IMG/VR virus record: IMGVR_UViG_3300021335_001807 | Location: 1-30,318 of that record | Source of the DNA: a virus | Reading direction: 5' to 3' (one strand) | DNA length: 30,318 nt | Part shown: positions 1-22,072 of the stretch, piece after piece | How the letters are laid out: each line of letters begins with the position of its first letter | Position numbering within the stretch: position 1 is the first letter of the stretch | Program-made: the position numbers and the translations under genes | Notes under the pieces: generated by a model | Database searches by the model: none | What the model saw: the letters and a program-made list of their open reading frames with translations, nothing else | Told to the model about the DNA's origin: nothing

Positions 1-189
1 AAGGATGAATTCAATAAATTAGAGGAGATTTATTCTCAATTTCAAAAGAATTTTGATATTACTAGAGAACAAGTAGAGAAAGAAGCTATAGAATGCCGTG
101 ATGATCTAATAGATCTTTATTATATTGTAGAAGAAAAATATAGAAAAAAACATTATGTCTCCAAAAGGGGGCGTCCAAGAAAAATATGA
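1..189 (+). CDS. C-terminal part of an unidentified phage protein
   Basis: The reading frame is open from the first base and ends in TGA at 187-189, so 62 codons of an unknown upstream gene are visible. The segment is rich in Glu, Lys and Tyr and looks helical. It ends in a short basic tail, KRGRPRK, which resembles an AT-hook core (RGRP) and could touch DNA. That is inference from a seven-residue motif. The stop overlaps the start of the next gene as ATGA, so the two are probably translationally coupled. The start lies outside the window and I do not recognise the family. Confidence 0.7.
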   Translation, partial: KDEFNKLEEIYSQFQKNFDITREQVEKEAIECRDDLIDLYYIVEEKYRKKHYVSKRGRPRKI

Positions 190-992
190 AAGTAAGTCAC
201 GAAGTACCTAGTTGTTTATTAAGCGCATCCCCTGAATTTAATGATTATGATTATTGTCTTCCTCATTTATTAGATCAAGATGAGGATTATTTACAATATT
301 TTAAAAATGCTAAGGAAGCAGGTCGTTATATTATTATGGATAATTCACTTCATGAATTAGGAGAGGCGTATGATTATGATAGATTAAAGTATTGGATTAA
401 AGAACTAGAACCAAATGAATTTATAGTACCTGATGTTTGGATGAATTGTGCTAATACTGCAGCACAAGCCAAGTATTGGCTACAGTTTAAATACCCTAAA
501 AACACTAAAATTACAGCTGTAATCCAAGGTGAAAATAAAAATCAAGCTTATTTATGTGCTAGTTTATTAGCTAATTTAGGTTATACTAAATTATGTGTAT
601 CTTATGGTGCTACCTGGTATAACGATTTCTTTCCACATACTAACCCAGATATGGGAAAAGCATTAGGTAGAGTACGATTTGTACAGGGATTATTAAAACT
701 AAAACAAATGAAAGATATTAAATTTCATTTATTAGGATGTTCTATTCCTCAAGAATTTGGTTGGTATGATAACGATCCTAGAATTGAGTCAATTGATACT
801 TCCAACCCAGTGATGGCTGGTTTAGAAAATATATTGTATAATGAAAGAGGTTTAAATTCAAAACCAAAGGCAAATATGAATGATTATTTTAATATGGCTT
901 GGGAAGATGTTAATTACTTAAGTGTAATACATAATACAAATAAATTTAGAGAAATTAATAATATTAAAAAAGTAAATATATGGCAAAATTAA
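186..992 (+). CDS. dpdA: TGT-like DNA base-exchange enzyme (phage DpdA type)
   Basis: Likely a tRNA-guanine-transglycosylase homologue that swaps guanine in DNA for a 7-deazaguanine base. Motifs, in the order I associate with phage DpdA proteins: MDNSLHELGE at residues 51-60 (cf. DNGAFELG), VPDVW at 81-85, VIQG at 112-115, HLLG at 181-184 and IDTSNPV at 203-209. D83 and D204 are candidate catalytic Asp residues by analogy with TGT. The length, 268 aa, is shorter than tRNA TGTs, and the C-terminal zinc cysteines of those enzymes are not visible. The strongest support is context: queC, queD, queE and folE follow within 4 kb on the same strand. The start is ATG, overlapping the previous stop as ATGA. 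An alternative is a TGT-like protein acting on RNA. The family match is from memory, not a search. Confidence 0.75.
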   Translation: MKVSHEVPSCLLSASPEFNDYDYCLPHLLDQDEDYLQYFKNAKEAGRYIIMDNSLHELGEAYDYDRLKYWIKELEPNEFIVPDVWMNCANTAAQAKYWLQFKYPKNTKITAVIQGENKNQAYLCASLLANLGYTKLCVSYGATWYNDFFPHTNPDMGKALGRVRFVQGLLKLKQMKDIKFHLLGCSIPQEFGWYDNDPRIESIDTSNPVMAGLENILYNERGLNSKPKANMNDYFNMAWEDVNYLSVIHNTNKFREINNIKKVNIWQN

Positions 993-1180
993 GAAGAAGA
1001 GTAATTTATACTACTGTTAGGTGGGAAGAAACAGAACTACTAACAGAAGAACAAATTAAAAAATGGAAATCAGAAGATGAAGATCTTCAAGATGAAGTTA
1101 TGGATGAAGTTGAATTTGACTTATCTCATGATAAAGCTTTAGAAGATAGTGATTGGCCTGAATTGATAGAAGACGAATAA
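980..1180 (+). CDS. Small acidic protein of unknown function
   Basis: 66 aa. The N-terminus is basic (MAKLRRRVIY) and the rest is strongly acidic, with runs of Glu and Asp to the C-terminus and no Cys. I do not recognise it. Its start overlaps the end of the dpdA-like gene by 13 bases, and the next gene begins 1 base after its stop, so it is part of the same transcript. Small acidic phage proteins are often DNA mimics or inhibitors, but nothing in this sequence identifies such a role. Confidence 0.65.
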   Translation: MAKLRRRVIYTTVRWEETELLTEEQIKKWKSEDEDLQDEVMDEVEFDLSHDKALEDSDWPELIEDE

Positions 1181-1181
1181 T

Positions 1182-1403
1182 ATGGCAGAATTAATAAAAC
1201 ATGCATTAGGATTTTGTGGAGAGCATTGGCATCCAAACTTTTGGACTCTTCTCACAGGAGGATTTGGATTAGTGGGTATTTATCATTATACTATATCTTA
1301 TCTTAAATGCAGATATAAAAAATTTAAAACAGCGTTTGCCTATACGCTTTATAATACCTGGCAAAATTTAATTAATTATTTATCATGGCGAAAAATGTCG
1401 TAG
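1182..1403 (+). CDS. Small single-pass membrane protein, unknown function
   Basis: 73 aa. A hydrophobic stretch at about residues 20-41 (FWTLLTGGFGLVGIYHYTIS) is long enough to span the membrane. It is followed by a basic Lys/Arg/Tyr-rich segment, which by the positive-inside rule would lie in the cytoplasm. The C-terminus overlaps the queC start by 19 bases, so it is co-transcribed and probably translationally coupled with queC. No family recognised. Confidence 0.6.
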   Translation: MAELIKHALGFCGEHWHPNFWTLLTGGFGLVGIYHYTISYLKCRYKKFKTAFAYTLYNTWQNLINYLSWRKMS

Positions 1404-2215
1404 TGTCCTTATCTGGAGGGATGGACTCCTCTACTTTATTACTTAGATGTTTATCTGAGTATGACAGTGTAACAGCTTTATCTTTTGATTATGGTCAAAA
1501 ACATAGAGTAGAACTTGAAAGAGCTCAATCATTAGTAGATTATATTAATGGGCTTGAAAACAAAGCAGCAGAAGATGGACAAAAAGCTCCATATAATCCT
1601 GTCAAATACCAAGTTATTAAATTAGATGGTTTAGTTAACTTGTTAGATTCTAACCTTGTAGAAGGTGGAGAAGATGTACCAGAAGGTCATTATGAAGAAG
1701 AAAATATGATAGCAACTGTTGTACCTAACAGAAATAAAATTTTCTCTTCATTGACTCAAGCAGTAGCATTATCTGTATCTAAAAGAACAGGAGAAGAATG
1801 TGATATTGCTTTAGGTATTCATGCTGGTGATCATGCAATTTATCCTGATTGTAGACAAGAATTTAGAGATGCTGATTACGAAGCTTTCAAAATTGGTAAT
1901 TGGGATGCTGATAAAGTAGGATTTTTTATACCTTATATTGATACTGATAAATTAGGAATTTTAAAAGATGGAGAAGTACTTGTTGATAAATTGGGTATTG
2001 AATTTGATGAAGTTTATAAAAGAACAAATACTTCTTATAAGCCATATCCTTCAGGAAATAGTGATTATAAGTCTGCTTCTAGTGTTGAGAGGATTGAGGC
2101 TTTTATTGCTCTGGGGAGAAAAGATCCTGTACAGTATGAGGATGAAACTGGAGAAGTTGATTACGAAGTAGCAAAATCTCATGTAGAAAAGCTACTAGCT
2201 GAATACTCAGCTTAA
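1385..2215 (+). CDS. queC: 7-cyano-7-deazaguanine (preQ0) synthase QueC, zinc cysteines lost
   Basis: QueC converts 7-carboxy-7-deazaguanine, ammonia and ATP to preQ0 in the cytoplasm. The PP-loop ATP site SGGMDSS is at residues 10-16. Further QueC-type blocks are VVPNRNKIF and IYPDCRQEF. The protein is 276 aa, longer than the usual 220-240, with extra sequence around residues 50-60 and 180-200. The C-terminal region aligns by eye with the family's zinc-binding loop and the RLEAF helix (here VERIEAF), but all four expected cysteines are replaced (Tyr, Asp and Ser present instead). Either the phage enzyme folds without structural zinc or this is a diverged PP-loop enzyme. Queuosine-pathway neighbours favour QueC. 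The ATG start overlaps the membrane-protein gene. Confidence 0.85.
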   Translation: MAKNVVVSLSGGMDSSTLLLRCLSEYDSVTALSFDYGQKHRVELERAQSLVDYINGLENKAAEDGQKAPYNPVKYQVIKLDGLVNLLDSNLVEGGEDVPEGHYEEENMIATVVPNRNKIFSSLTQAVALSVSKRTGEECDIALGIHAGDHAIYPDCRQEFRDADYEAFKIGNWDADKVGFFIPYIDTDKLGILKDGEVLVDKLGIEFDEVYKRTNTSYKPYPSGNSDYKSASSVERIEAFIALGRKDPVQYEDETGEVDYEVAKSHVEKLLAEYSA

Positions 2216-2223
2216 AAAACGTA

Positions 2224-2296
2224 TGGCTCGTGGTGTAACTGGCAACACGTCTGGTTTTGGTCCAGAAGAGTCTAGGTTCGATCCCTAGCGAGCCAA
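2224..2296 (+). tRNA. tRNA-Gln (anticodon UUG)
   Basis: A complete cloverleaf can be folded by hand: acceptor stem TGGCTCG/CGAGCCA (2224-2230 with 2289-2295, including the U1-A72 pair typical of tRNA-Gln), D arm around GTGT..ACAC, anticodon stem TCTGG/CCAGA with loop TTTTGGT (anticodon TTG) and T arm CTAGG-TTCGATC-CCTAG. The discriminator is A at 2296 and CCA is not encoded. It lies 8 bases after queC and 14 bases before the next coding start, so it must be excised from an mRNA-type transcript. Gln-UUG is not a queuosine-modified tRNA (those have GUN anticodons), so its place in the block is unlikely to reflect Q modification. It would read CAA, the usual Gln codon in this AT-rich genome. Confidence 0.95.
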
Positions 2297-2310
2297 CTAA
2301 ATTTAATTAT

Positions 2311-2508
2311 ATGAAAGATTTTAATAATATTGAAAAAGATAGAAAAAATTTAGAACATATGCCTGATCAAAAATTACATCAGGTTATTAGTTTTATCAAA
2401 TCAGGAATTAGAATAGTTGGATATGGACTTTTACTATATAACGTGCCAATTGCAGTAGGAGTTCTTATATTAAGTGAAGCAATTGGTATAATTGAAGAAT
2501 TAGTGTAA
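2311..2508 (+). CDS. Small membrane protein, unknown function
   Basis: 65 aa. The frame can be extended upstream into the tRNA gene, but that is not plausible, so the ATG at 2311 (MKDFNN) is chosen. The N-terminal half is charged; residues about 35-58 are hydrophobic (IVGYGLLLYNVPIAVGVLIL) and could form one or two membrane segments. The stop overlaps the thioredoxin start by one base (TAATG). Family not recognised. Confidence 0.65.
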   Translation: MKDFNNIEKDRKNLEHMPDQKLHQVISFIKSGIRIVGYGLLLYNVPIAVGVLILSEAIGIIEELV

Positions 2509-2756
2509 TGAAGAAAATCTTATATTTTAGTGCAGCATGGTGTGGTCCATGTCAAACATTAGGTCCTATTATGGAGTCTTTAAAAGGAGATATTAATTAT
2601 CAAAAAATTGATGTAGATAATAATCAAGATTTATCTATGCAATATGGGGTAAGAAATATTCCTACTTTAATTTTATTAGATGAAACTGGTGAAGTTAAAG
2701 GAAGAAAAGTAGGGTTACAAACAAAACAAGACATTTTAAATTTTTATAATGGGTAA
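2508..2756 (+). CDS. Thioredoxin
   Basis: 82 aa, a compact thioredoxin fold. The redox motif WCGPC is at residues 11-15 and the cis-proline region is NIPTL near residues 51-55. It starts directly at the first beta strand (MKKILYF), so the usual N-terminal helix and strand are missing and it is shorter than cellular thioredoxins (about 105 aa), as often seen in phage versions. It would reduce disulfides in the cytoplasm, for instance as an electron donor for ribonucleotide reductase or another phage enzyme. No reductase gene is in the window. Overlaps queD by 8 bases. Confidence 0.9.
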   Translation: MKKILYFSAAWCGPCQTLGPIMESLKGDINYQKIDVDNNQDLSMQYGVRNIPTLILLDETGEVKGRKVGLQTKQDILNFYNG

Positions 2757-3213
2757 ATTTCAATCTAGCAAAGTATTTGATGGTTTTTCTACAGTATTTC
2801 GTCAATGGAGAGCTACAACAACACACTGTAGATTTGTACATGGTTATGGTATTTCATTTAAAGTATATTTTGAGGGAGATTTAGATGATAGAAATTGGGT
2901 TTGGGATTTTGGTGGTATGAAAAGAGCAAAAACTAAAATCGATGGTAAATCTCCTAAGGAATGGATGGATTATATGTTTGATCATACTTTAGTAGTGGCG
3001 GAAGATGATCCAGAATTAAAAGCATTTCAACAAATGGATACAGCAGGAGTAGCTCAGGTAAGAGTAATCCCAGCTACGGGTGCAGAAAAATTTGCAGAAT
3101 TTATATTTAATAAAATTAATGAATTTGTTCAAACTGAAACTGAAAACAGAGTAAAAGTTGTTAAAGTTAAGTTTATGGAACATGGTAAAAACGCAGCTTA
3201 TTATGTCGCTTAA
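2749..3213 (+). CDS. queD: 6-carboxy-5,6,7,8-tetrahydropterin synthase (QueD family), variant active site
   Basis: QueD turns dihydroneopterin triphosphate into 6-carboxytetrahydropterin, the second step to preQ0. Family landmarks: the Cys and His of HCRFVHGY (residues 26-33), WVWDFGGMK (50-58), FDHTLVVAEDDP (77-88) with the catalytic His region, and GAEKFAEFI in place of the usual PTAENLA helix. In canonical QueD the metal is held by three His including an HGH pair. Here the second of the pair is Tyr (HGY) and no clear upstream His is seen. I recall HGYxxSF as a recurring variant in some bacterial and phage homologues, so activity is still plausible. 154 aa, slightly longer than the usual 120-140. 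Confidence 0.85.
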   Translation: MGKFQSSKVFDGFSTVFRQWRATTTHCRFVHGYGISFKVYFEGDLDDRNWVWDFGGMKRAKTKIDGKSPKEWMDYMFDHTLVVAEDDPELKAFQQMDTAGVAQVRVIPATGAEKFAEFIFNKINEFVQTETENRVKVVKVKFMEHGKNAAYYVA

Positions 3214-3979
3214 AAGAATTGAAGATTATAACAAAGTATTGCCTGTATTAGAACTTTATACAGCAGTACAATCAGAGGGTAGTAGGCAAGGCTACCCTAC
3301 TATTGTAGTTAGAACAACAGGTTGTACCCATAGATGTTATTTTGGAGAAGGGGGTTGGTGTGATTCTTGGTATACAAGTATCCACCCAGAAAAAGGTACT
3401 TTTTGTTTCCAAGATATAATTAATATGTACGATGCAAATCCTCATATTAAAGAAATGATGTTAACAGGAGGTTCTCCTACTATGCATCCTAAGTTAGTTA
3501 ACGAATTAACACATTTAGCTCATGAAAGGGATATTTTCATTACTATTGAAACTGAAGGATCTCATTTCCTTCCCACTGATTATCCTATCAATCTTCTTAG
3601 TATTTCTCCTAAATTTAGTAATAGCATCCCCGTTATTGGTGCTACTACTCCTCAGGGAGCGATTGTTGACGAAAGGATGGTTAAAAAACACAACTCAAAA
3701 AGAGTAAATATTGAAGCAATAAAACAATCTATTGATTATCATTCTGATTATCATATTAAACCTGTATTAGATAAAGAATTATCTATGGTAGGTGAAGTAG
3801 AAGATTTCCTTAAAGAATGTAACATACCAGATAGTAAAGTTTGGGCAATGCCTGCTGGGGATGATAGAGAATCATTAATGGAATCATATCCAACCGTTAT
3901 GAATTTTGTTAGAGATAGAGGATGGCGTTTTACAGGCCGTTCACATATCATGGCATTTAATACAGAAAGGTGTGTCTAG
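3203..3979 (+). CDS. queE: 7-carboxy-7-deazaguanine synthase QueE (radical SAM), atypical cluster loop
   Basis: QueE is the radical SAM enzyme that contracts 6-carboxytetrahydropterin to 7-carboxy-7-deazaguanine. Family signs: ELYTAVQSEGSRQGYPTIVVR near the N-terminus (cf. E.F.S.QGEG..G.p..FvR) and the cluster cysteines in TTGCTHRC at residues 38-45 with GWCDSW at 51-56. Spacing is C-x3-C-x7-C rather than C-x3-C-x2-C. TGGSP replaces the usual TGGEP, and SPKFS follows. The frame extends upstream inside queD, but ATG 3203 (MSLKRI) gives a 258-aa protein and a short overlap with queD, so it is preferred. It ends inside the next small gene. Confidence 0.87.
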   Translation: MSLKRIEDYNKVLPVLELYTAVQSEGSRQGYPTIVVRTTGCTHRCYFGEGGWCDSWYTSIHPEKGTFCFQDIINMYDANPHIKEMMLTGGSPTMHPKLVNELTHLAHERDIFITIETEGSHFLPTDYPINLLSISPKFSNSIPVIGATTPQGAIVDERMVKKHNSKRVNIEAIKQSIDYHSDYHIKPVLDKELSMVGEVEDFLKECNIPDSKVWAMPAGDDRESLMESYPTVMNFVRDRGWRFTGRSHIMAFNTERCV

Positions 3980-4106
3980 GGAAGAAGCTCTTAGTATATT
4001 AGAAGAAATAGAGGAAAATGTAACTACATGCTGTGCCATTACTATGGAGCCAGATGAAGTACTAGTATTAATAGATAAATTAAAAGAATATTTAAATGGA
4101 GAATAA
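3906..4106 (+). CDS. Small helical protein, unknown function (start uncertain)
   Basis: 66 aa if read from TTG 3906, which lies 74 bases inside queE; 44 aa if read from GTG 3972, which overlaps the queE stop by only 8 bases. The sequence HLIQKGVSREEALSILEEI looks like two amphipathic helices, and the part before GTG 3972 appears to belong to the same helix, slightly favouring the longer form. The end overlaps the folE start by 11 bases. The overlaps on both sides and the continuous frame support a real gene, but I do not recognise a family. Confidence 0.5.
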   Translation: MLEIEDGVLQAVHISWHLIQKGVSREEALSILEEIEENVTTCCAITMEPDEVLVLIDKLKEYLNGE

Positions 4107-4791
4107 ACGTAGAAAAAAACATGAGAATTTAGAGGTTGTACCAATTGGTTTTGCAAATGGAGTTGCACCTGGATTTCCATTCACCGATAAAGAAAAAGAA
4201 AAAATGATTAATAGAGCAGAAAAAGCTTATGGTAAGTTTTTAGATGCTCTAGAATGTGACTGGAGAAATGATCCTAATTCAATGGAAACCCCTAGACGAG
4301 TAGCTAAAGCTTATGTTAATGATTTATGGGCCGGCAGATATACAGCTATGTCTCCTATTACATCATTCCCATCAGATGGTTATGATGGTGTAATTATAGA
4401 ACGTAATATACCGTTAACTTCAATGTGTTCTCATCATCACCAAACAATAGGTGGAGTTGTACATATTGGTTACATTGCAGGAGAAGATGGTCAAGTAATT
4501 GGTTTATCTAAATTAAATAGAATTGTAGAATTATTTGGTCGTAGAGGAGCAATCCAAGAACAATTAACATCAGCTATCCATAATGCAGTAGATAAAATTA
4601 CCGAAGGTAATAAAGGTGTTATTGTAACTATTGTAGGTACTCATAACTGTGTATCTTGTAGAGGTGTAAAACATCAAGGAGCAGCAATGGTTACTACAAA
4701 AGCATCAGGAAAATTTAGAGATGATAATAATTTAGCTCGTAAAGAATTTTTTGATAGCTTAAAAATTAATAACGGAGGACACAATATTTAA
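4096..4791 (+). CDS. folE: GTP cyclohydrolase I
   Basis: FolE opens GTP to dihydroneopterin triphosphate, the entry step to the 7-deazaguanine pathway and also to folate. Signature blocks: TPRRVAKAY (65-73), TSMCSHHHQTIGG (108-120), IGLSKLNRIV (135-144), FGRRGAIQEQLT (147-158) and GTHNCVSCRGVKHQG (181-195). Zinc ligands Cys111, His114 and Cys185 are recognisable. 231 aa, close to the 190-225 aa usual for the family plus a basic N-terminal tail. In phages this gene commonly accompanies queC/D/E and feeds DNA modification. It completes the GTP-to-preQ0 set here. Confidence 0.95.
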   Translation: MENKRRKKHENLEVVPIGFANGVAPGFPFTDKEKEKMINRAEKAYGKFLDALECDWRNDPNSMETPRRVAKAYVNDLWAGRYTAMSPITSFPSDGYDGVIIERNIPLTSMCSHHHQTIGGVVHIGYIAGEDGQVIGLSKLNRIVELFGRRGAIQEQLTSAIHNAVDKITEGNKGVIVTIVGTHNCVSCRGVKHQGAAMVTTKASGKFRDDNNLARKEFFDSLKINNGGHNI

Positions 4792-4794: not shown

Positions 4795-5340
4795 ATGTTA
4801 AAATTAGATAATAAAAAAATGTCAGTTAGTTGGTGGGATATGACTGATATTATAAAAGATTTAACTAAAAAAATTCCATTTGAAGTACCATTAGCTGATT
4901 CAATTTATGGAATACCTAGAGGTGGTTTAATTCCTGCAGTCATGTTATCACATTCAACAGGTTTACCTTTAGTACAAACAATAGGTAAAAATACCTTAGT
5001 AGTAGATGATATGACAGATAGTGGAGTTACTATGGATAAAATGCCTGGACAGTGGACAGCAGTTTTATTTCATAAACCTCATACTTCAATTTTTACCCCA
5101 AATGTATATTCTAAATTACATGAAGGAGATGAATGGTTAGTATTTCCTTGGGAAGATTTTAAGGCACCTGCTAAACAAGATTATTTACAATCAGATGAAT
5201 TTTTAGAATTTGCAGAAAGAGAAGATAATTCTGTGGTGTGGTCAGAAGAAGATAGTAAATTACATACTATAGGAGGTTTATCTAATGATAAAGATAAATC
5301 GTTTATAAAATTCATAAATAAATTAGATAAAAATGGGTAA
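4795..5340 (+). CDS. Purine-type phosphoribosyltransferase
   Basis: 181 aa with a type I PRTase fold. YGIPRGGLIPAVMLSH (38-53) matches the PPi-binding loop region of xanthine/hypoxanthine-guanine PRTases, and LVVDDMTDSGVTM (68-80) is the PRPP-binding motif (two acidic residues followed by TDSG). It would join a purine base and PRPP to give a nucleotide. The C-terminal third (about 120-181) is charged and not typical. Its position directly after folE suggests either guanine salvage into the GTP pool or handling of a 7-deazaguanine base. That link is inference only. Overlaps the next gene by 8 bases. Confidence 0.8.
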   Translation: MLKLDNKKMSVSWWDMTDIIKDLTKKIPFEVPLADSIYGIPRGGLIPAVMLSHSTGLPLVQTIGKNTLVVDDMTDSGVTMDKMPGQWTAVLFHKPHTSIFTPNVYSKLHEGDEWLVFPWEDFKAPAKQDYLQSDEFLEFAEREDNSVVWSEEDSKLHTIGGLSNDKDKSFIKFINKLDKNG

Positions 5341-5884
5341 ACAATTAGAATTTGCATACCAATGGGAAAAATTAAGAGACGTCCCATTTGTAAATGAAGT
5401 AGAAGAATTTAATGCCACATTTGGCAAACCAAACAATTATGAACCGACAATACCAGAAAAAAAAGAATGGCAATTCGTATACGACTTTGTACTTGAAGAA
5501 TTGGAAGAATATAGACAGGCTTGCGAAAACGGAAACATCGTGGAAGTTTTGGATGCTTTGTGCGACATTGCTTATGTTTCCCTCGGGAACGGTACTATGC
5601 TACATGGCCTTAAGGATAAGATATGGCCAGCGTATAAAGAGGTACAAGCCAGTAATATGTCGAAGTCTTGTAGCACTGAGAAAGAAGCCATGGAAACTGT
5701 CACCATCCGCTCTAAAGAACAAAATGAGCCATGTCACTATGAGAAAGTGGAGGAGAGATTTGTAGTATATAGAACTCGAGATAGAAAAGTAATGAAATCA
5801 ATTAATTATTTTAGACCTGATCTAACTCAGTTTTTTACAGGAGATGAATTACAAAGGTTTCACAATACAAGTGCAGGAATATAA
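5333..5884 (+). CDS. MazG-like NTP pyrophosphohydrolase with extra C-terminal domain
   Basis: 183 aa. Residues 45-80 carry the MazG/all-alpha NTP-PPase pattern: EELEEYRQA (55-63) and VLDALCDIAYV (72-82), giving the E-x-x-E...E/D-x-x-D metal site. It probably hydrolyses (d)NTPs to monophosphates plus PPi, for example to shape the nucleotide pool. Residues from about 115 on are an unassigned domain. Bases about 5405-5765 have a composition unlike the surroundings: hand counts give about 42-43 % G+C in two 60-base rows, against 17 % in the row just upstream. Codons such as TGC, CTC, GGG, CGC and AAC are common there. This suggests recent exchange with a relative of different codon use. Confidence 0.75.
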   Translation: MGKQLEFAYQWEKLRDVPFVNEVEEFNATFGKPNNYEPTIPEKKEWQFVYDFVLEELEEYRQACENGNIVEVLDALCDIAYVSLGNGTMLHGLKDKIWPAYKEVQASNMSKSCSTEKEAMETVTIRSKEQNEPCHYEKVEERFVVYRTRDRKVMKSINYFRPDLTQFFTGDELQRFHNTSAGI

Positions 5885-7587
5885 TGTATAAAAAGTGTTA
5901 TGCTACCAGATTAGGAAATAATAAGTATAAGATTCATTTATGGGACGAAGGTGGCTATGATGAAATCGAGTGGCATAATCCTGCTTATCAAGAATGTTCT
6001 AAAGAAGAGGCAACTTTTACTGGTTTAAGTGGAGAGCCTCTTCGAAAAATTTATAAATGGGATAAAAACACCCCCAACTTACATTTCCATGATATAACTC
6101 CGTATCAAAAATATCTTATTGAAAAATATGGTGTTGATGATAAACCTTCTACAGGTCATAAAGAATTATTTTTTGATATTGAGTGTGAAATTGGAGGAGC
6201 TTTAACTGAAGAATATATTGAAAGAGCCCCTATGCCTATTACTACAATAGCATACTGGGATAAATCAGAAGATCATTGGGTTATTTTAGTTCGTGATGAT
6301 AAAGGTGAATTAAAGCGTACTAAAGCTAAAAATAAAGAAATTGTACCTTGTAGAACAGAACAAGAAATATTAGCTAAATTTTTAGAACGTTTTAGAGAAA
6401 TTGATCCCGATATTTTAATTGGTTATAACAGTGATTTCTTTGATATACCTTATCTATATTATAGAATGTGTAATGTATTAGGTCAAGAATGGGCTGATCA
6501 ATTGTCTCCAATTGGTAAAGTAAATGCTAAAAAGAATAATCAATATTTTTTTAAACAAAACCAATTTGTAGATATTATTGGAGTTGAATCTTTAGACTAT
6601 ATGAGATTACATAAAAAATATAGTTGGAAAGACGAACCAAGTTGGAAATTAGATGCTATTGGAGAAAAATATACTGGAATAGGTAAAGTTGATTATGAAG
6701 GTAATCTTGATCAATTATTTGAAACAGACCTACAAAAATATATTCAGTATAACTTTCGTGATGTTGAAATATTAAAATTATTAGATGAAAAACTTCAATA
6801 TATTGCTTTAACTAAAAATCTATCTCATAAAGGAAAACATAACTATAGTGAGGTTTATGCAAATAGTAAAACTCAAGATGGTGCAATCTCAGCTTATTTA
6901 TTGTCCCAAAATATAATCCCACCAGGTAAGGATCCTAACCCTAGAAGTAAAAAAGGATACGCTGGTGGTTACCTTTTTTGCCCTAAAGCTGGATTGTACA
7001 AATATATGTTTGATGAAGATTTAACATCACTGTATCCATCTATAATTATGTCTTTAAACATAGGACGAGAAACATTCAAGGGACGTATCATTGATGCTGA
7101 TGATCGCAATAATAGATTGGGTCTTAATGATTTAAAAGAACGTGATCAAGATGAAGAATTATTAGTTGAAAATGCTAAAGGACAACAAACTAGAGTTAAT
7201 GTTGGAAGATTAATTTCTATGGTTGAACAAAATAATTTAACATTATCAGCTAATGGTTGTATGTTTACTACTGATAGGCAATCAACATTATCTACAGTAT
7301 TAGCTAAGTGGTTTGATGAACGTAAATTATATAAAGGCAAAATGAAGGATGCCTATAAATCAGGTAATAAAGAAAAGGGTGCTTATTACCATTTAATGCA
7401 ATATACAATGAAGATTTTGCTTAATAGTTTATATGGTGCTACAGCATTACCTTCGTTTAGATATGGGATGAGTTTATCTATACTAAGCGAAGCCATTACT
7501 CTATCAGGCCACAGAATTATTCAAGAATCAGCTTTATGTGCTAATAGACATATGAATAAAGTTTTAAGAGGAGAATTAACATTATGA
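5884..7587 (+). CDS. 43A: DNA polymerase PolB, N-terminal subunit of a split gp43
   Basis: 567 aa holding the 3'-5' exonuclease and most of the polymerase domain of a T4-type PolB enzyme. Exo I is FDIECE (97-102), Exo II GYNSDFFDIPY (180-190) and Exo III YNFRDVEIL (289-297). Polymerase motif A is DLTSLYPSIIMS (379-390) and motif B is the KILLNSLYG region (510-518). Motif C (YxDTDS) is absent and the frame stops at 7587, shortly after the fingers helix region. The missing part is encoded at 8586-9542. No catalytic residue is lost from the pair, so the two chains probably assemble into one enzyme, as reported for gp43A/gp43B of Aeromonas phage 44RR. The start overlaps MazG by one base. Confidence 0.93.
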   Translation: MYKKCYATRLGNNKYKIHLWDEGGYDEIEWHNPAYQECSKEEATFTGLSGEPLRKIYKWDKNTPNLHFHDITPYQKYLIEKYGVDDKPSTGHKELFFDIECEIGGALTEEYIERAPMPITTIAYWDKSEDHWVILVRDDKGELKRTKAKNKEIVPCRTEQEILAKFLERFREIDPDILIGYNSDFFDIPYLYYRMCNVLGQEWADQLSPIGKVNAKKNNQYFFKQNQFVDIIGVESLDYMRLHKKYSWKDEPSWKLDAIGEKYTGIGKVDYEGNLDQLFETDLQKYIQYNFRDVEILKLLDEKLQYIALTKNLSHKGKHNYSEVYANSKTQDGAISAYLLSQNIIPPGKDPNPRSKKGYAGGYLFCPKAGLYKYMFDEDLTSLYPSIIMSLNIGRETFKGRIIDADDRNNRLGLNDLKERDQDEELLVENAKGQQTRVNVGRLISMVEQNNLTLSANGCMFTTDRQSTLSTVLAKWFDERKLYKGKMKDAYKSGNKEKGAYYHLMQYTMKILLNSLYGATALPSFRYGMSLSILSEAITLSGHRIIQESALCANRHMNKVLRGELTL

Positions 7588-8202: not shown

Positions 8203-8589
8203 ATGAAAATAGAAGTATCAAACGGAGAGTTATTAGACAAAATTTCAATTTTAGAATTAAAATTACTTAAAATTGAAGATGAAGATAAATTAGTTAATAT
8301 TAGGAAAGAATTTGAAACATTAAATCCTTTAGCTAAAAAATTATTTGAAACATTTGGAGGTAATTTACAAAATCATTATCTTGAACTAGCTCGTATAAAT
8401 GGGTTATTATGGGATATTGAAGATTGGATTAGAGATTGTGAGCGTGAAAAAAGGTTTGATGAAGAATTTATTCAATTAGCAAGATCTGTTTATGTTACTA
8501 ATGATCAAAGAAGTGAAGTTAAAAAACTTATTAATAAAACAACTGGATCAGATTTGGTAGAAGAAAAATCATATAAAGATTACAAGTGA
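8203..8589 (+). CDS. DUF6165-like protein
   Basis: 128 aa, almost entirely helical. The N-terminus MKIEVSNGELLDKISILELK resembles, from memory, the DUF6165 family, found near glycosyltransferase genes in bacteria and marine phages, whose function is not known to me. The rest (LFETFGGNLQNHYLELARIN, WDIEDWIRDCERE) fits the same family shape. Together with the neighbouring mannose-type cupin it hints that the insert between the polymerase halves is glycan-related cargo. The end overlaps the second polymerase cistron as GTGA. Confidence 0.6.
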   Translation: MKIEVSNGELLDKISILELKLLKIEDEDKLVNIRKEFETLNPLAKKLFETFGGNLQNHYLELARINGLLWDIEDWIRDCEREKRFDEEFIQLARSVYVTNDQRSEVKKLINKTTGSDLVEEKSYKDYK

Positions 8590-9542
8590 AACATTTAGAA
8601 GAAACACCTTGGTTTATTTGCGATAAAGAAGATGAGAATTATTGTGCTTATGTAGACACTGATTCTAATTATTTTAATGCTGAACCCATATTAAAATATT
8701 TGTACCCTGATTTTGAATCATTCTCAGATGAAGAAAAAGATGAAAAATTAGAAGGTGTGGCTTTAGCATATCAAGATATTATTACTGAACATTATGATAA
8801 TTTAGCTACTGATTGTTTTAATGTTAAACAGTTTGAATGGTTTGATAAACCACATTGGCTTGAAATGAAGACTGAATGTGTAATAAGATCAGCCTATTTT
8901 AGAGCAACAAGGCGATATGCACAATGGATTACTAAACAAGAGGGCATTGCTAAAGAAACTTTAGATATTAAAGGTTTAGAGTTTATGAAAGCAAATTTTC
9001 CCCCAATATTAGGGGATTTCTTTAATGATATTCTTCAACAGGTTCTAAAAGGAGAACAACATAAAAGCATTATAGAACAAATTAAAATATTTAAAACACA
9101 AATTTTAGATGGCACTATTCCTTTAGCTAAATTAGGTAATCCTACTGCTGTTAAAAAACTAGATAAATATAGTGGTAAAAGTGCCCGTGCAGGTGAAATG
9201 TTTACTGAAATTTTAAAAGGTGCTCCTGCACCTGTAAGAGCAGCTATTCGTTATAATGATTTACTTAGGTTATGGCAATTAGATAGAAAATATAATCTAA
9301 TTACAATGGCAGATAAAGTAAAATGGATTTATTTAAAAGATAATCCTTATAAAATAGAAGCATTAGCATTTTTTGATTATGAAATGCCAGAAAAAATAGT
9401 TGATTTTTTAGATACTTATGCTGATAGACAGAAAGTATTTGATTCAATATTATTAAATAAATTAGAAGGGTTTTTTAGTGACTTAGGTTGGTCTCTTAAT
9501 TTAAATCCCTATGTAAATGCTTTAAAAAGTTTTGAAATATGA
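8586..9542 (+). CDS. 43B: DNA polymerase PolB, C-terminal subunit of a split gp43
   Basis: 318 aa. Motif C AYVDTDSNYF is at residues 21-30, with the two catalytic aspartates at 24 and 26. The palm end and thumb follow (KTECVIRSAYFRATRRYAQW, and KLDKYSGKSARAGEMF). It contains none of motifs A or B, so it cannot polymerise alone and must pair with the product of 5884-7587. The junction corresponds to the loop before GDTDS in T4 gp43, so the whole protein is accounted for. The start is GTG at 8586, inside the overlap GTGA with the preceding gene; a start in the coupled position fits the dense layout. The sliding clamp gene follows after one tiny gene. Confidence 0.93.
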   Translation: MKHLEETPWFICDKEDENYCAYVDTDSNYFNAEPILKYLYPDFESFSDEEKDEKLEGVALAYQDIITEHYDNLATDCFNVKQFEWFDKPHWLEMKTECVIRSAYFRATRRYAQWITKQEGIAKETLDIKGLEFMKANFPPILGDFFNDILQQVLKGEQHKSIIEQIKIFKTQILDGTIPLAKLGNPTAVKKLDKYSGKSARAGEMFTEILKGAPAPVRAAIRYNDLLRLWQLDRKYNLITMADKVKWIYLKDNPYKIEALAFFDYEMPEKIVDFLDTYADRQKVFDSILLNKLEGFFSDLGWSLNLNPYVNALKSFEI

Positions 9543-10905: not shown

Positions 10906-11328
10906 ATGAGTACATTAGAAATCTTTGAAAGGCAGATTAGTCCTTTCGACATTTTATTTAGAAATCTTTTTAACGCTGAGTCGCAATTCGCACCAGCATT
11001 ACAATCAAAACAACCACATCCCGTTAATATCTTTTATGATGATAAAGGACTTCATTTTGAAGTTGCCTGTACAGGACTAACTAAAAAAGAAGTTGATATC
11101 AACATTGAAGGGGATATTTTGAAAATCTCTTATAAAAAACCCGAAGCTGAAGAATTTCATGAGGGTACAATTTATAATGGGTTATCAAAAAAATCATTTA
11201 ATTTAGGATATAAGATAGCTCCTAAATTTGATTTAAGTGAAGCAACTGCTGAATTGGCAAATGGGCTTTTAGTCATTTTTATTCCAATTGCTGAAGAAGC
11301 TAAACCAAAGTCTATCAAAATTAAGTAA
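10906..11328 (+). CDS. Small heat-shock protein (Hsp20/alpha-crystallin)
   Basis: 140 aa. The alpha-crystallin domain spans about residues 38-130: VNIFYDDKGLHFEVACTGL, VDINIEGDILKISYK and the late strand NGLLVIFIPIAEEAKPKSIK. The C-terminal IKIK gives an IxI-like motif used by sHsps for oligomer assembly. It would bind unfolding proteins and hand them on. Standing in the same region as phage groES and groEL it suggests a phage-encoded folding kit for virion or replisome proteins. It lies between two non-coding gaps, so it may be a single-gene transcript. The first 100 or so bases are richer in C than the surrounding genes. Confidence 0.9.
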   Translation: MSTLEIFERQISPFDILFRNLFNAESQFAPALQSKQPHPVNIFYDDKGLHFEVACTGLTKKEVDINIEGDILKISYKKPEAEEFHEGTIYNGLSKKSFNLGYKIAPKFDLSEATAELANGLLVIFIPIAEEAKPKSIKIK

Positions 11329-11344
11329 TAAGTTTTATTAAAAT

Positions 11345-11367
11345 ATGTGTCCTAGCACATTGTTTTT
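11345..11367 (+). terminator. Weak hairpin plus T-run after hsp20
   Basis: ATGTG (11345-11349) pairs with CACAT (11356-11360) around the loop TCCTAG, followed by TGTTTTT. It lies 16 bases after the hsp20 stop. The stem is only 5 bp and AT-rich, so this is a weak terminator candidate. The T-run is also the beginning of the TTTTTCGTATATT motif at 11363. Confidence 0.35.
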
Positions 11368-11375
11368 CGTATATT
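11363..11375 (+). promoter_or_regulatory. TTTTTCGTATATT motif before the groES/groEL unit
   Basis: Second copy of the recurring motif, 23 bases upstream of the ATG at 11399. This spacing would allow a normal leader if TATATT is a -10 box. It probably drives the 107-aa gene, groES and groEL. The downstream context CACGTTA matches the copy at 9698. Confidence 0.55.
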
Positions 11376-11398
11376 CACGTTACAAATAAATAAGTTAT

Positions 11399-11722
11399 AT
11401 GTCAGATACTAAGCGTAGAAAATCAATACAAATTATTACAGATCCATTATTAGAACCTTTCTTTATTACTAAAGATGAATATAGCTATACTGTTAAACAA
11501 AATGTTAAATCAGATAGTTCCCATTTTAGAAGTAAAGGAAAATCTAAAACCTATGAAAAATCATTATACTATTACCCCCAATTTGATCAAGCTATAAATA
11601 AAATAGCAGAATTAAAATCACAGTTTGGTGACTATAATAGTATAAAAAATTATTTAGAAGATTATAAAAAAATTAGTAACCAAATAAAAAAATACACAAA
11701 TGGAATTAGAAGCGTTATTTGA
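11399..11722 (+). CDS. Phage protein of unknown function upstream of groES
   Basis: 107 aa, basic and Tyr/Lys-rich. The stretches LEPFFITKDEYSYTV, HFRSKGKSKTYEKSLYYYPQ and a C-terminal helix (INKIAELK...IKNYLEDYKKIS) recall small hypothetical proteins of marine T4-like phages, but I cannot name a function. The start ATG is at the end of AATAAATAAGTTATATG. The last 23 bases overlap groES, so it is translationally coupled to the chaperonin genes. Confidence 0.7.
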   Translation: MSDTKRRKSIQIITDPLLEPFFITKDEYSYTVKQNVKSDSSHFRSKGKSKTYEKSLYYYPQFDQAINKIAELKSQFGDYNSIKNYLEDYKKISNQIKKYTNGIRSVI

Positions 11723-12068
11723 TGCTGTTATAGTTAAACCTAAAGAAACAGAAGAAACTACTTATGGTAACATTATTGTTCCTGATATAGGTAAGGAAAA
11801 AAATGAAATAGGTAAGGTTATAGCAGTAGGTCCGGGAAAACCAACAATTACAGGAGAATTTATCCCAACACAATTAAAAATAGGAGATGAAGTAGTTTTA
11901 CCTACTATGGGATTTACCAGATTACCTTATAACGGAGAAGAATATTACGTGGGTCCCGAAAATCAAATTCTTGCTAAAATTAGTCAAAAAGTTGACGTAG
12001 CAGAAATATTAGAAGAAACTAAAGAGTCATTAACTGAAGAAGAAATTAAAGATTTATCAAATGAGTAA
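11700..12068 (+). CDS. groS: Co-chaperonin GroES
   Basis: 122 aa. GroES-type features: LFDAVIVKPKETEETTYGNI, whose second half is the mobile loop that contacts GroEL; GKVIAVGPGK; LKIGDEVVLP; and YYVGPENQILAKI, close to the family C-terminal pattern. The usual length is about 97 aa; here an acidic C-terminal tail of roughly 20 residues (LEETKESLTEEEIKDLSNE) is added. It caps the GroEL chamber. T4 carries only a GroES substitute (gp31); here the partner groEL follows with an 8-base overlap. Confidence 0.9.
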   Translation: MELEALFDAVIVKPKETEETTYGNIIVPDIGKEKNEIGKVIAVGPGKPTITGEFIPTQLKIGDEVVLPTMGFTRLPYNGEEYYVGPENQILAKISQKVDVAEILEETKESLTEEEIKDLSNE

Positions 12069-13680
12069 ACAAGTTATATTAGGTTCAGAAGCAAGAACCA
12101 ATTTAGTAGAGGGAATTGATATATTAGCAGATGCTGTTGTATCAACATTAGGACCTAATGGTAGAAATGTAGTAATTGCTAATAATGGATTTCCACAATC
12201 TACAAAAGATGGAGTTACTGTTGCCAAATCCATAACTCTAAAAGACCCTAATCAAGAATTAGGAGTTCAATTAGTAAAACAAGCTGCGATTAAGACAGCT
12301 GAAAAAGCAGGTGATGGTACTACTACATCTACTTTATTAGCTAGAGAAATGATTAAAGCAGGATTAACAGCCTTAAATAATAACGAAAACGCAGTTCAAA
12401 TTAAAAGGGATATTGATTCTACAGTTAAAGAAATAGTCAATAATCTTAAAAATAACATATCAGAAGATATTTCTGGAGAAGAACAACTAGAACAGATTGC
12501 ATCAATATCAGCAAATAATGACCCAGAAACTGGAAAATTAATTGCTACAGCAATTGAAAAAGTTGGAATGGAAGGGGTTGTCCATATTGAAGAATCTCGC
12601 ACAGGTGAAACTTACCTTGAAACTGTTGAAGGGTTACAGTTTGGTAGAGGGTATAAATCACCATATTTTGTTACAAATAATAGTAATATGACTGCCACAT
12701 TGGACAACCCCTTAATTCTAATTGCGGATCAAAAAATAACTCAAGTAAAAGAATTATTACCAATTTTAGAAGCAGTTGGGGCACAAGCAAAATCACTTTT
12801 AATTATTGCTGAGGATATTGATAATGAAGCATTAGCTACCCTTATTGTTAATAAAATGAGAGGCACAATGAAAGTATGTGCTGTAAAAGCTCCTGACTTT
12901 GGTGATAGGAGAAAATTAGTATTAGAGGATATAGCTATTACAACTGGAGGAGTAGTATTTGACAAACAAAAAGGTATGAAACTTGATAAATTTAGTTGGG
13001 AATGGTTTGGAGAAGCGAGAACAGTAACAGTAGAAAAAGAACAAACAACAATAGTAGATGGAAAAGGATCAGTTGAATCAATTGAAACACGTGTTGAAGA
13101 ACTACAGCAACAAATCGACAAGGCAACAACGCCGTTCGAAGTCGAAAAACTCCAAGAAAGGTTGGCGAAATTCGTCGGAGGAGTAGCTATTATTCATGTA
13201 GGAGGAAACACTGAAACTGAAATGAAGGAGAAAAAAGACAGAGTTGATGATGCTTTACATGCAACAAAAGCAGCTATAGAAGAGGGTATTGTCCCAGGAG
13301 GGGGAACAGCATTATTATATGCCTCTAATGGTTTAAAAGCTAATACAACAGGAGCTCAAATTGTAGTAGAAGCATGTGCTAAACCTTTTAATCAAATTTT
13401 AGTTAATGCTGGATATGATAAAGTAAAAGGACAAATATTAGCTGATCAATTATGTAATTCTGGTAATGATGCTTGGGCAGGTTATAATATTAAAACTGAT
13501 GAAATAGTTAATATGAAAGAATCTGGAATTATTGATCCTACTAAGGTGGCTAGGACAGCCCTTGAAAATGCTGCTTCTGTAGCGGGCACTGTTTTACTAA
13601 CTGAATGTACAGTAGTTGATGACCCAGAAGAAGAATCTCAACAACCACAAATTGATCCATCAATGATGGGGATGATGTAA
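12061..13680 (+). CDS. groL: Chaperonin GroEL
   Basis: 539 aa, full length (E. coli 548). TLGPNGRNV (29-37), TKDGVTVAK (48-56) and the ATP-site AGDGTTTST (83-91) are intact. VEEGIVPGGG-type and VAGTVLLTE blocks are present near the C-terminus. The C-terminal tail is short (DPSMMGMM) instead of repeated GGM. With GroES it would form a complete phage chaperonin, perhaps to fold viral proteins the host machine handles poorly. Bases about 13085-13190 have unusually high G+C for this genome (about 43 % by hand count in one row), with TCG, GCG, ACG and CTC codons. Confidence 0.97.
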   Translation: MSKQVILGSEARTNLVEGIDILADAVVSTLGPNGRNVVIANNGFPQSTKDGVTVAKSITLKDPNQELGVQLVKQAAIKTAEKAGDGTTTSTLLAREMIKAGLTALNNNENAVQIKRDIDSTVKEIVNNLKNNISEDISGEEQLEQIASISANNDPETGKLIATAIEKVGMEGVVHIEESRTGETYLETVEGLQFGRGYKSPYFVTNNSNMTATLDNPLILIADQKITQVKELLPILEAVGAQAKSLLIIAEDIDNEALATLIVNKMRGTMKVCAVKAPDFGDRRKLVLEDIAITTGGVVFDKQKGMKLDKFSWEWFGEARTVTVEKEQTTIVDGKGSVESIETRVEELQQQIDKATTPFEVEKLQERLAKFVGGVAIIHVGGNTETEMKEKKDRVDDALHATKAAIEEGIVPGGGTALLYASNGLKANTTGAQIVVEACAKPFNQILVNAGYDKVKGQILADQLCNSGNDAWAGYNIKTDEIVNMKESGIIDPTKVARTALENAASVAGTVLLTECTVVDDPEEESQQPQIDPSMMGMM

Positions 13681-15538: not shown

Positions 15539-15762
15539 CAAAAGAATTATATAATATGTTAAAAAAGTCTGCTGAGGCAGACAAGGCAAAAGCATTATTA
15601 TCACTTGAATTACTAGGCAATAAAGCTGTAGGTATTGGTGATCATTCAACTGAAGACTTTTATAAAAATGCTGAAGAAGCACTTACAACTTTAGTTGATG
15701 CTGATGATAGATTAGAAACTTTAGAGAAATATTTTCAAATTAAAAACCAAGTCAATGGGTGA
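15535..15762 (+). CDS. Small helical phage protein, unknown function
   Basis: 75 aa, nearly all helix (YNMLKKSAEADKAKALLSLE) with a conserved-looking loop GIGDHSTEDFYKN and a second helix (ALTTLVDADDRLETLEKYF). It recalls small uncharacterised proteins of marine T4-like phages next to gp62. No function can be given. Overlaps both neighbours by 4 to 8 bases. Confidence 0.7.
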   Translation: MTKELYNMLKKSAEADKAKALLSLELLGNKAVGIGDHSTEDFYKNAEEALTTLVDADDRLETLEKYFQIKNQVNG

Positions 15763-16171
15763 TACAATATCCAAATGGCACGAAATGCAAGAAGAAATGA
15801 GCGATAGAGAAATAATGGACGCTAAAAACCCAGATGTGGCTGCAGTTAGAAAATTTGAAAAGGATTATCCTGAATTATCTAAAGAGTTTAGAGAAATACA
15901 AAGTGAGATGTATGAAATGTTTGCTCGTAAACATCTTGATTACGGTTTAAATAATATTGCTCTTGGGGGTGATTTAACTAATAGTGATGATAAAAAATTT
16001 TCACTTACTGGTTTAACTATTAGACTTACTGATAAAATTTCTAGATTAAAAAATCTTATAGTACATGGTAGAAACTATGTAAAAGGTGAAGGAATGGAAG
16101 ACACGTTTATTGACATAGCTAATTATGGAATAATTGGGATGTTAGTAGGACGTGATAAATGGAAAAAATAA
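15755..16171 (+). CDS. DUF1599-type protein (possible nucleotide-modification associated domain)
   Basis: 138 aa. The second half carries ARKHLDYGLNNIALGG (57-72), GLTIRLTDKISRLKNLIV (84-101) and EDTFIDIANYGIIGMLV (117-133). From memory this matches DUF1599, which I recall being annotated as a nucleotide-modification-associated domain. The pattern DIANYG resembles all-alpha NTP-PPase helices, so a nucleotide-binding or hydrolysing role is possible. In a genome with a 7-deazaguanine block such a protein could act on modified nucleotides (inference). Overlaps the upstream gene by 8 bases. Confidence 0.65.
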   Translation: MGDTISKWHEMQEEMSDREIMDAKNPDVAAVRKFEKDYPELSKEFREIQSEMYEMFARKHLDYGLNNIALGGDLTNSDDKKFSLTGLTIRLTDKISRLKNLIVHGRNYVKGEGMEDTFIDIANYGIIGMLVGRDKWKK

Positions 16172-17389: not shown

Positions 17390-18829
17390 ATGAATAAAAG
17401 TTTTAAATACCTTCCTCAAGATAAGAGGAAAAAAATACTATTAATCTGTGATGATATTAGAGTACACTCAGGTGTTGCCACAATAGCAAAAGAAATAGTA
17501 ACCCATACAGCTCACCATTTTAATTGGGTACAAATGGCGGGGGCAATAAACCACCCAGATAAAGGAAAAAAATTAGATTTATCTTCAGATACTAATAAAG
17601 TAGCTGATATAGAGGATTCTTTTGTAAGACTTTATCCCGTTGATGGTTATGGTAATCCAACAATTTTAAGGCAAGTCATATCATTTGAAAAACCAGATGC
17701 TATAATGCTTTTTACTGATCCAAGATACTTTACATGGGTATTTAATATGGAGCATGAAATAAGAAAACAAATCCCTATTGCCTATTTAAATATTTGGGAT
17801 GATTATCCTGCTCCAATGTATAATAAACCCTATTATGAAGCTTGTGATTTGTTAATGGGTATATCAAAACAAACAGTTAATATAAATAAACTAGTACTTA
17901 ATGATAAAAAAGATAGTAAAATTTTTAAGTATATTCCTCATGGAAAAAACCCAAAAATATATTATCCAATTGTAGAGGAAAATAAAGATTACTTAGAATT
18001 TAGAAATAAAGTATTTGGTAATGCAAAACCAGAATTTGTTGTATACTTTAATTCTAGAAATATACGAAGAAAACAAATACCAGATACAATGTTAGCTTTT
18101 AGGGCATTTTTAGATTCTTTACCTAAGGAAAAATCAAAAAATTGTTTTCTTTTATTAAAAACAGAACTAGTTACGGATGCAGGAACTGATTTACCAAGAG
18201 TAAAAGAATATTTCTTTGGAGAAGAGTATGATAATAATGTTAAATTTATAGAGTCTAAATTAGAGGAAAAACATTTAAATTATCTATATAATATAGCAGA
18301 TGTTCAAATTTTACTAACCTCAAATGAAGGTTGGGGATTAACAATTACTGAAGCAATACTATCAGGTACTCCTATTATAGCAAATACTACAGGTGGTATG
18401 CAAGATCAAATGAGGTTTGTTGATGAGAATGGAGAATGGTTTACTCCTAGTGCTGATATACCTTCTAATCATAGAGGAACATATAAAGAACATGGAGAAT
18501 GGGCTTTCCCAGTTTATCCAACTAGTAGATCAATTCAAGGTTCTCCCCCAACTCCATATATTTACGATGATAGATGTAAATGGGAAGATGCTTTAGAACG
18601 AATTAAAGAAGTCTATAATTTAAGTTCTGAAGAACGTAGAACTAAAGGGTTAAAAGGAAGAGAATGGGCCCTAAGTGAGGAAGCAGGTTTTACATCTGAA
18701 CATCAAGGAAAAAGAGTTATAGAAGCATTTGATGAATTATTTGATACTTGGAAACCAAGAGAAAAGTATGAAATAGTAAGTGCTAATGAATATAAAGGAA
18801 AAAATTTAAATCATAAATTATTTTATTAA
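17390..18829 (+). CDS. Glycosyltransferase, GT4-like
   Basis: 479 aa, two Rossmann halves (GT-B). The N-terminal part has KKILLICDDIRVHSGVATIA (14-33), with the SG(V) loop near the first strand. In the C-terminal half, EEKHLNYLYNIADVQILLTS leads to NEGWGLTITEAILSGTPIIA, which is the GT4 donor-binding E-x7-E signature. It would move a sugar from a nucleotide-sugar donor to a glycan or protein acceptor in the cytoplasm. It is the first enzyme of the glycan block and overlaps the next glycosyltransferase by one base (TAATG). The donor sugar cannot be inferred. Confidence 0.85.
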   Translation: MNKSFKYLPQDKRKKILLICDDIRVHSGVATIAKEIVTHTAHHFNWVQMAGAINHPDKGKKLDLSSDTNKVADIEDSFVRLYPVDGYGNPTILRQVISFEKPDAIMLFTDPRYFTWVFNMEHEIRKQIPIAYLNIWDDYPAPMYNKPYYEACDLLMGISKQTVNINKLVLNDKKDSKIFKYIPHGKNPKIYYPIVEENKDYLEFRNKVFGNAKPEFVVYFNSRNIRRKQIPDTMLAFRAFLDSLPKEKSKNCFLLLKTELVTDAGTDLPRVKEYFFGEEYDNNVKFIESKLEEKHLNYLYNIADVQILLTSNEGWGLTITEAILSGTPIIANTTGGMQDQMRFVDENGEWFTPSADIPSNHRGTYKEHGEWAFPVYPTSRSIQGSPPTPYIYDDRCKWEDALERIKEVYNLSSEERRTKGLKGREWALSEEAGFTSEHQGKRVIEAFDELFDTWKPREKYEIVSANEYKGKNLNHKLFY

Positions 18830-20124: not shown

Positions 20125-20564
20125 TGAATTTTGATGAATTAAAAATATGCAGCAGATGTGGTTCTGATGCATGCTACAGCCAGGAAGTTACTAAAGATAT
20201 TACAATTGAAATGTGCTATGGATGTGGCTTCCAATCCAATTCCCTGATGGAAAAAGGATCAGAATTTTTTAATGAACAATGGGAGACATTACCTGAAATT
20301 TATAAAGTTTTAATGGATGAAGAAGAAGAAACTGGTAAAATTTGGATGCCTTCTACTATTAATATTAAAGATAAGGGAATGGTGTTTGCAACAGGAAAAG
20401 ATAGAGATAATTGGGCATGGGGAGCTGTAAAAGTAACTAAAGTCAAAAAGAAAGATAGAGATAAATATAATAAAGAAAAATATAGAGCAGATATGACAAC
20501 CATCAAATATTTTAAAGAACGGGATTATATGGACGCTTTATCATATATTAATGTAATACCTTAA
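20124..20564 (+). CDS. Zinc-ribbon phage protein, unknown function
   Basis: 146 aa. CSRC at 9-12 and CYGC at 31-34 form a four-cysteine zinc ribbon near the N-terminus. The rest contains WMPSTINIKDKGMVFATGKD and DNWAWGAVKVTKV, a beta-rich part, then a lysine-rich helix. It starts one base inside the previous stop. Not an obvious enzyme. It may be a conserved phage protein unrelated to glycans that happens to lie within the block. Confidence 0.65.
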   Translation: MNFDELKICSRCGSDACYSQEVTKDITIEMCYGCGFQSNSLMEKGSEFFNEQWETLPEIYKVLMDEEEETGKIWMPSTINIKDKGMVFATGKDRDNWAWGAVKVTKVKKKDRDKYNKEKYRADMTTIKYFKERDYMDALSYINVIP

Positions 20565-20567
20565 AAA

Positions 20568-21446: not shown

Positions 21447-21448
21447 AT

Positions 21449-22072
21449 ATGAAAATAAGTTATGCAATTACTGTTTGTAATGAAAAATTAGAAGTAAAAC
21501 GTTTAATTGATTTTTTATTAGCTAATAAACGCAAACAGGATGAAATTATTGTACTTTTTGACCAAAAAAATGGTGAGGAAAAAGTAATTAATATGCTTAC
21601 TAAACTAAATAAGTTACCAAATTTTCAAGTATGGAGAGGTAATTTTGAAAATCATTTTGCTAATTGGAAAAATAAATTAACTGAATATTGTAATGGGGAT
21701 TATATATTTCAAATTGATGCTGATGAAATCCCTAATAAAACATTAATTCAACATCTACCAGAAATTATAAATTCAAATGAAAAAGTAGATGTAATGTTAG
21801 TTCCACGGGTTAACACAGTAGAAGGTTTGACTCAAGAGCATATTCAAAAATGGGGTTGGAATGTAGATGATAAAGGTTGGGTAAATTGGCCTGATTACCA
21901 ATGGAGAATTTGGAAAAACATCCCAGAAATTAAATGGAAAAATAAAGTACATGAAGTACTAAAAGGATTTAGCCATTACTCAGTTTTACCTTCATCAGAA
22001 CAATATTGTTTATATCACCCAAAACAAATAGAGAGACAAGAAAAACAAAATGCTTATTACGATACGTTATAA
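21449..22072 (+). CDS. Glycosyltransferase, GT2-like
   Basis: 207 aa. It begins with SYAITVCNE, typical of the GT-A fold, and has the DxD-type metal site IDADEIP (residues about 91-97). The C-terminal stretch WPDYQWRIWKNIPEIKWKNK and HEVLKGF is what many GT2 family members show (reading W-R-I-x-K and VHE). Its substrate is unknown. The stop overlaps the next start by one base (TAATG). It is shorter than many GT2 proteins (about 250-300 aa) but no frame break is visible. Confidence 0.78.
   Translation: MKISYAITVCNEKLEVKRLIDFLLANKRKQDEIIVLFDQKNGEEKVINMLTKLNKLPNFQVWRGNFENHFANWKNKLTEYCNGDYIFQIDADEIPNKTLIQHLPEIINSNEKVDVMLVPRVNTVEGLTQEHIQKWGWNVDDKGWVNWPDYQWRIWKNIPEIKWKNKVHEVLKGFSHYSVLPSSEQYCLYHPKQIERQEKQNAYYDTL

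Follow-up and report, generated by a model that had tools for sequence, protein, structure and literature searches.

Which modified base would a phage place in its DNA when genes for making preQ0 (7-cyano-7-deazaguanine) sit next to a DpdA-like insertion enzyme, and the QueC among them has no zinc site? The question is posed by positions 186-4791 (+ strand) of the viral record IMGVR_UViG_3300021335_001807, a marine phage sequence analysed here as a fragment of 30,318 bases (hereafter, the window); genes elsewhere in the same genome lie outside this view. We regard it as probable that the block is a phage 7-deazaguanine DNA-modification operon, in which a zinc-less QueC would lead to deoxy-preQ0 (dPreQ0) and which would include a salvage step for guanine, the basis for this being gene content, protein fold, conservation and motif loss. 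Since modification of phage DNA by way of preQ0 and DpdA is established as a means of evading bacterial restriction enzymes, the block itself is no surprise. What is new in this known system is a widespread variant whose QueC lacks the zinc site.

Conservation of the block in two groups of viral loci

The five genes named in the original prediction (DpdA-like, QueC, QueD, QueE and FolE) are all present together on one strand, the pathway genes being recognised by profiles and the DpdA-like open reading frame (ORF 186-992) by fold and homology. They are arranged as DpdA-like ORF, two small ORFs, QueC, tRNA-Gln(TTG), a small hydrophobic ORF, thioredoxin, QueD, QueE, a small ORF and FolE, beyond which follow a phosphoribosyltransferase (4795-5340), a MazG/PRA-PH-like gene (5333-5884) and DNA polymerase B. 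While the gene content proposed for 186-4791 stands, its end was set too early, as the phosphoribosyltransferase and the MazG-like gene are part of the conserved block.

The same gene order was seen again in many tens of contigs, which excludes chance as its origin. The pathway is common to two sister groups of viral loci, referred to hereafter as window-type and immuto-type, the latter after Flavobacterium phage vB_FspM_immuto_2-6A (Immutovirus; immuto). QueC lies within 4.5 kb after DpdA in all 91 window-type loci, with QueD, QueE and FolE nearby, and neither QueF nor a formyltransferase was found in any of 77 loci of this type. In immuto-type loci, DpdA is followed by QueF (55/55), thymidylate kinase (55/55) and a formyltransferase-like gene (52/55). 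Pathway-gene profiles, fold and conserved linkage together support the earlier reading of the block as a putative preQ0 pathway coupled to DpdA. With ~200 loci, the pathway is frequent among uncultured phages and appears to exist in two chemotypes, one ending in preQ0 and one with QueF and a formyltransferase. The host was not fixed by matches to metagenome-assembled genomes, which were spread across Flavobacteriales as well as unrelated bins, probably through wrong binning of virus contigs.

Identity between immuto and the window is 67% for QueC, 72% for QueE, 70% for QueD and 37% for DpdA, and both have a zinc-less QueC as well as phosphoribosyltransferase and MazG-like genes. Immuto differs in that its DpdA is immediately followed by the formyltransferase-like gene, thymidylate kinase and QueF, in the position of QueC ~15 kb away, and in a DNA polymerase annotated as family A. 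Its formyltransferase-like gene and QueF would predict a formylated preQ1 base.

A compact DpdA-like protein

ORF 186-992 (+ strand, 268 aa) could not be identified by sequence alone. No matches were obtained against Pfam and NCBIfam models, PHROGs returned just families with no assigned function (best phrog_19058, E 8e-40), and PDB sequence matches were weak and mostly unrelated, with the bacterial DpdA 7ui4 at E 0.63. The fold was far more informative: an AlphaFold2 model built from 50 viral homologues (predicted local distance difference test score, pLDDT, 94.4) has a TIM barrel of the tRNA-guanine transglycosylase (TGT) type, and the top PDB match in Foldseek is the DNA preQ0 insertase DpdA 7ui4 (E 2e-6), followed by bacterial TGTs. 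The two proteins share 15% identity, and the 7ui4 chain is longer (413 residues). D52, D83, Q114, G184 and D204 are invariant across the 50 homologues and appear to follow the order of catalytic and pocket residues expected of a TGT. ORF 186-992 matched no non-TGT family with a high score, the one competing sequence family, DUF6610, being matched weakly by 24 of the 50 homologues (best E 8e-4).

Homology places this protein among compact DpdA-like proteins of the phiST/CP220/immuto type, and such a group is said to have been named DpdA3 by Cui et al. in 2023, with complete guanine replacement reportedly among its features. Relatives found by tblastn were the annotated DpdA of immuto (37%), proteins of the Campylobacter phage CP220 group (Firehammervirus; 36%, with DpdA-like gp056 of CP220 aligned over 97%) and, weakly, Cellulophaga phage phiST. 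The phiST DpdA is only 22% identical and has the same fold, being the nearest structure from a named isolated phage among viral models (template modelling score, TM, 0.83). Its QueE and QueD are 67% and 61% identical to those of the window and a MazG-like gene adjoins its FolE; unlike in the window, no QueC is seen near the block. DpdA also lies near thymidylate kinase in both CP220 (L082:12001-13361) and immuto (L081:9998-12924).

One could suppose that the operon raises queuosine in host tRNA during infection and does not modify DNA: preQ0 is a common precursor, a tRNA gene lies within the block, and such a role has been proposed for phages without DpdA (PMC6884629). We consider this very improbable, as an enzyme of DpdA fold accompanies the pathway throughout, the tRNA within the block is tRNA-Gln, not a queuosine tRNA, and no tRNA TGT (PF01702) was found in the window or its relatives, this model leaving the window protein unmatched and reaching one of 50 homologues at E 0.32. 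TGTs have a C-terminal zinc site made of cysteines, and this site is missing from ORF 186-992, which has no cysteine past D204.

QueC without a zinc site

The QueC gene (preQ0 synthase; 1385-2215, + strand) matches PF06508 at E 4e-35, and the closest PDB folds of its model are the QueC structures 2pg3 and 3bl5. QueC has been described as a zinc enzyme marked by C(x)8CxxCxxC and SGGxDS, in which Y35, R99, Y131 and Y189 are essential in E. coli (PMC13329287). The window protein retains SGGMDS, YGQKHRVE, VPNRN, YPDC and TNTSY, corresponding to residues essential in E. coli, and thus has the SGGxDS, YxQxHxxE, VPxRN, YPDC and TxxSY tyrosine motifs of canonical QueC (PF06508 cluster 1). It departs from canonical QueC in that the C(x)8CxxCxxC motif is absent: the four zinc cysteines are replaced within a conserved stretch, TNTSYKP...SDYKSASSVERIEAF. 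This serine pattern is exact in 99 of 105 sequences of the family, and the remaining six are truncated or close variants. The loss had been overlooked in the original prediction, as had the conserved purine phosphoribosyltransferase and MazG-like gene, and it makes this QueC a clean natural test case for the necessity of the zinc site by which QueC has been defined.

Does such a protein still make preQ0? Six immuto-type loci with a QueC nearby have the identical serine pattern, and most of them also carry QueF in the locus. As judged from these gene sets, the pairing argues that the zinc-less QueC makes preQ0. Zinc cysteines are also missing from the QueCs of Pseudomonas phage Iggy, RHEph04 and Achromobacter ART, which are placed elsewhere on the QueC tree. 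A single origin of all zinc-less QueCs was rejected in favour of two changes (approximately unbiased test, p 0.004), with the caution due to long branches. Iggy resembles the window in keeping the catalytic motifs of QueC and in having QueD and QueE adjoining; it belongs to another phage group and its zinc site was lost separately. MiCath, whose QueC contains TWSCY together with a CGKCGPC cluster, was ruled out as a further zinc-less case.

The alternative is that a QueC without zinc halts at the amide intermediate, leaving the 7-amido base dADG (deoxy-7-amido-7-deazaguanosine) in DNA, a reading that the dADG of CP220-type Campylobacter phages might prompt. In the CP220 group dADG does replace guanine (PMC6884629 and its ref. 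36), the DpdA of CP220 is 36% identical to that of the window, and ADG is an intermediate of the QueC reaction (PMC13329287). Although dADG Campylobacter phages were grouped in 2019 with phages without DpdA (PMC6884629), the CP220 homologue of ORF 186-992 fits the presence of a DpdA in them. However, the QueC of the related Campylobacter phage CP20, of the same group, retains its cysteines, so their loss is not the cause of dADG in these phages and was rejected as its source. Further to that, immuto-type loci combine a zinc-less QueC with QueF, which requires preQ0, and the zinc-less Iggy has been reported with dPreQ0 (Olsen et al. 2023, by its title as cited in PMC11008142). The CP220 group also differs from the window in its scattered genes, in having no phosphoribosyltransferase found in CP220, and in its product, dADG, compared with the dPreQ0 predicted here. 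Taken together, we view dADG as an unlikely product of the window block.

The predicted final base

In line with the earlier expectation of preQ0 in the absence of QueF or an amidotransferase fusion, neither QueF, formyltransferase, GATase_6 nor tRNA TGT (PF01702) was found in the window-type genomes searched (up to 164 kb), all of which are fragments or of uncertain completeness. For this reason the absence of later-step genes is not proof. It does make dPreQ0 the best prediction, because QueF, formyltransferase and the Gat domain are absent here while immuto-type loci carry QueF and formyltransferase. Judging by gene content, dPreQ0 is fairly likely to be the final base, the main alternatives being dADG or a further-modified base.

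Under the last of these, an unrecognised enzyme encoded elsewhere in the genome would convert dPreQ0 to another 7-deazaguanine, such as deoxyarchaeosine (dG+), a derivative of deoxy-preQ1 (dPreQ1) or a new one. In favour of this, the window covers only part of a genome, QueF and a formyltransferase are additions seen in immuto-type relatives, and a PF07659 'nucleotide modification associated' domain is found at 15755-16171. Against this stands the empty search of the larger window-type genomes, which unfamiliar enzyme families could escape; we hold a later step to be about as doubtful as dADG.

Possible guanine salvage and a proposed mechanism

What becomes of the guanine that DpdA expels is a little-asked question, and it is raised by the co-conserved phosphoribosyltransferase (4795-5340, + strand). 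Its matches are 6-oxopurine enzymes of xanthine/guanine type (1vdm, E 1e-10; GpT-2; E. coli XGPRT), and the loop VVDDMTDSGVT that binds phosphoribosyl pyrophosphate (PRPP) is retained. The gene lies near FolE or DpdA in 17 of 22 window-type and 51 of 60 immuto-type loci; none was found in CP220 or in Chryseobacterium phage MA9V-3. The MazG/PRA-PH-like nucleotide pyrophosphohydrolase (5333-5884, + strand; PF01503, E 7e-10; phrog_671, E 1.5e-28) is near FolE or DpdA in 57/60 immuto-type loci and in 22/22 of window type, where it is within 2.5 kb of FolE. Every base that a transglycosylase inserts sets one guanine free, and an enzyme converting guanine to GMP in the same operon therefore suggests guanine recycling, in which the phosphoribosyltransferase, with guanine as its predicted substrate, would salvage what DpdA releases. 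Alternatively, it may serve the ordinary nucleotide supply.

From the above we infer enzyme activities, DNA as the target, the product, guanine recycling and protection in the following scheme. FolE, QueD, QueE and QueC would convert GTP to preQ0, with QueC performing its usual reaction without the zinc site. The compact DpdA would then act on the replicated DNA of the phage itself, exchanging guanine for preQ0, and the resulting dPreQ0 would block restriction enzymes. Each exchange would release one guanine, probably converted by the purine phosphoribosyltransferase to GMP and returned to the GTP pool that feeds FolE. More tentatively, many marine phages may run a self-contained guanine-exchange economy of this kind, with a zinc-independent QueC, a compact DpdA replacing much of the genomic guanine and salvage to GMP for FolE, the QueC zinc site having been lost at least twice with no loss of function; we would put this wider generalisation at somewhat less than an even chance.

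Several points weigh against the reading of the block as a dPreQ0 operon. By sequence, ORF 186-992 matches no TGT model, so that the TGT/DpdA assignment proposed earlier holds for the fold (DpdA 7ui4, then TGTs) and fails for sequence profiles, and the correspondence of its residues with those of TGT was drawn from the order of motifs instead of a superposition. QueC activity could have been altered or abolished when a site described as necessary for it was lost. The Iggy case is no more than suggestive as support for a working zinc-less QueC, since hosts may have a QueC of their own and that of Iggy may supply preQ0. Finally, the window is a fragment.

Remaining genes of the block

QueD (6-carboxytetrahydropterin synthase; 2749-3213, + strand; phrog_2389, E 2e-41) belongs to a subtype with the motif FRQW..HC..xHGYG, kept among relatives. 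The possibility that this motif, with FRQW and HGYG instead of HGH, marks a defect was rejected, as QueD relatives occur widely among other phages, phiSM having a motif of a similar kind. QueE (radical SAM 7-carboxy-7-deazaguanine, or CDG, synthase; 3203-3979, + strand; phrog_2076, E 4e-48) likely starts at ATG 3203 rather than at the TTG at 3158 of a longer version. Its iron-sulfur motif is CX3CX7C and not CX3CX2C, as in 158 of 164 relatives and in immuto and phiST. The FolE (GTP cyclohydrolase I; 4096-4791, + strand; PF01227, E 1.5e-42) metal motif CSHH...CVSCRG is retained in 146/153 relatives.

In many relatives, too, the tRNA-Gln(TTG) gene (2224-2297, + strand, called by ARAGORN) is found with QueC on one side and thioredoxin on the other. 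The small hydrophobic ORF 2257-2508, as called from TTG, has its 5' end inside the tRNA gene; its real start is probably ATG 2311. In 73 of 89 loci, thioredoxin (2508-2756, + strand; PF00085, E 4e-16) lies no more than 3 kb from QueC, and it is a conserved neighbour whose role in the pathway is at most putative.

Other features of the window

The family B DNA polymerase is split between ORFs 5884-7587 and 8586-9542, with the break between the NSLYG and YVDTDS motifs and three unrelated genes between the halves (a mannose-6-phosphate isomerase-like cupin, a small ORF and DUF6165). The split is kept in all nine window-type genomes checked, the window included, with variable spacing. The PF07659 protein at 15755-16171 (Nucleotide modification associated domain 1, E 2e-8) is encoded in the same genome as the operon and may be linked to it. 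As judged from ORF translations, Hsp20-like, GroES-like and GroEL-like genes are clustered at 10906-13680, and immuto likewise has GroES/GroEL near its operon. A long series of glycosyltransferase-like and sugar epimerase-like ORFs, also judged from translations, occupies 17390-26517.

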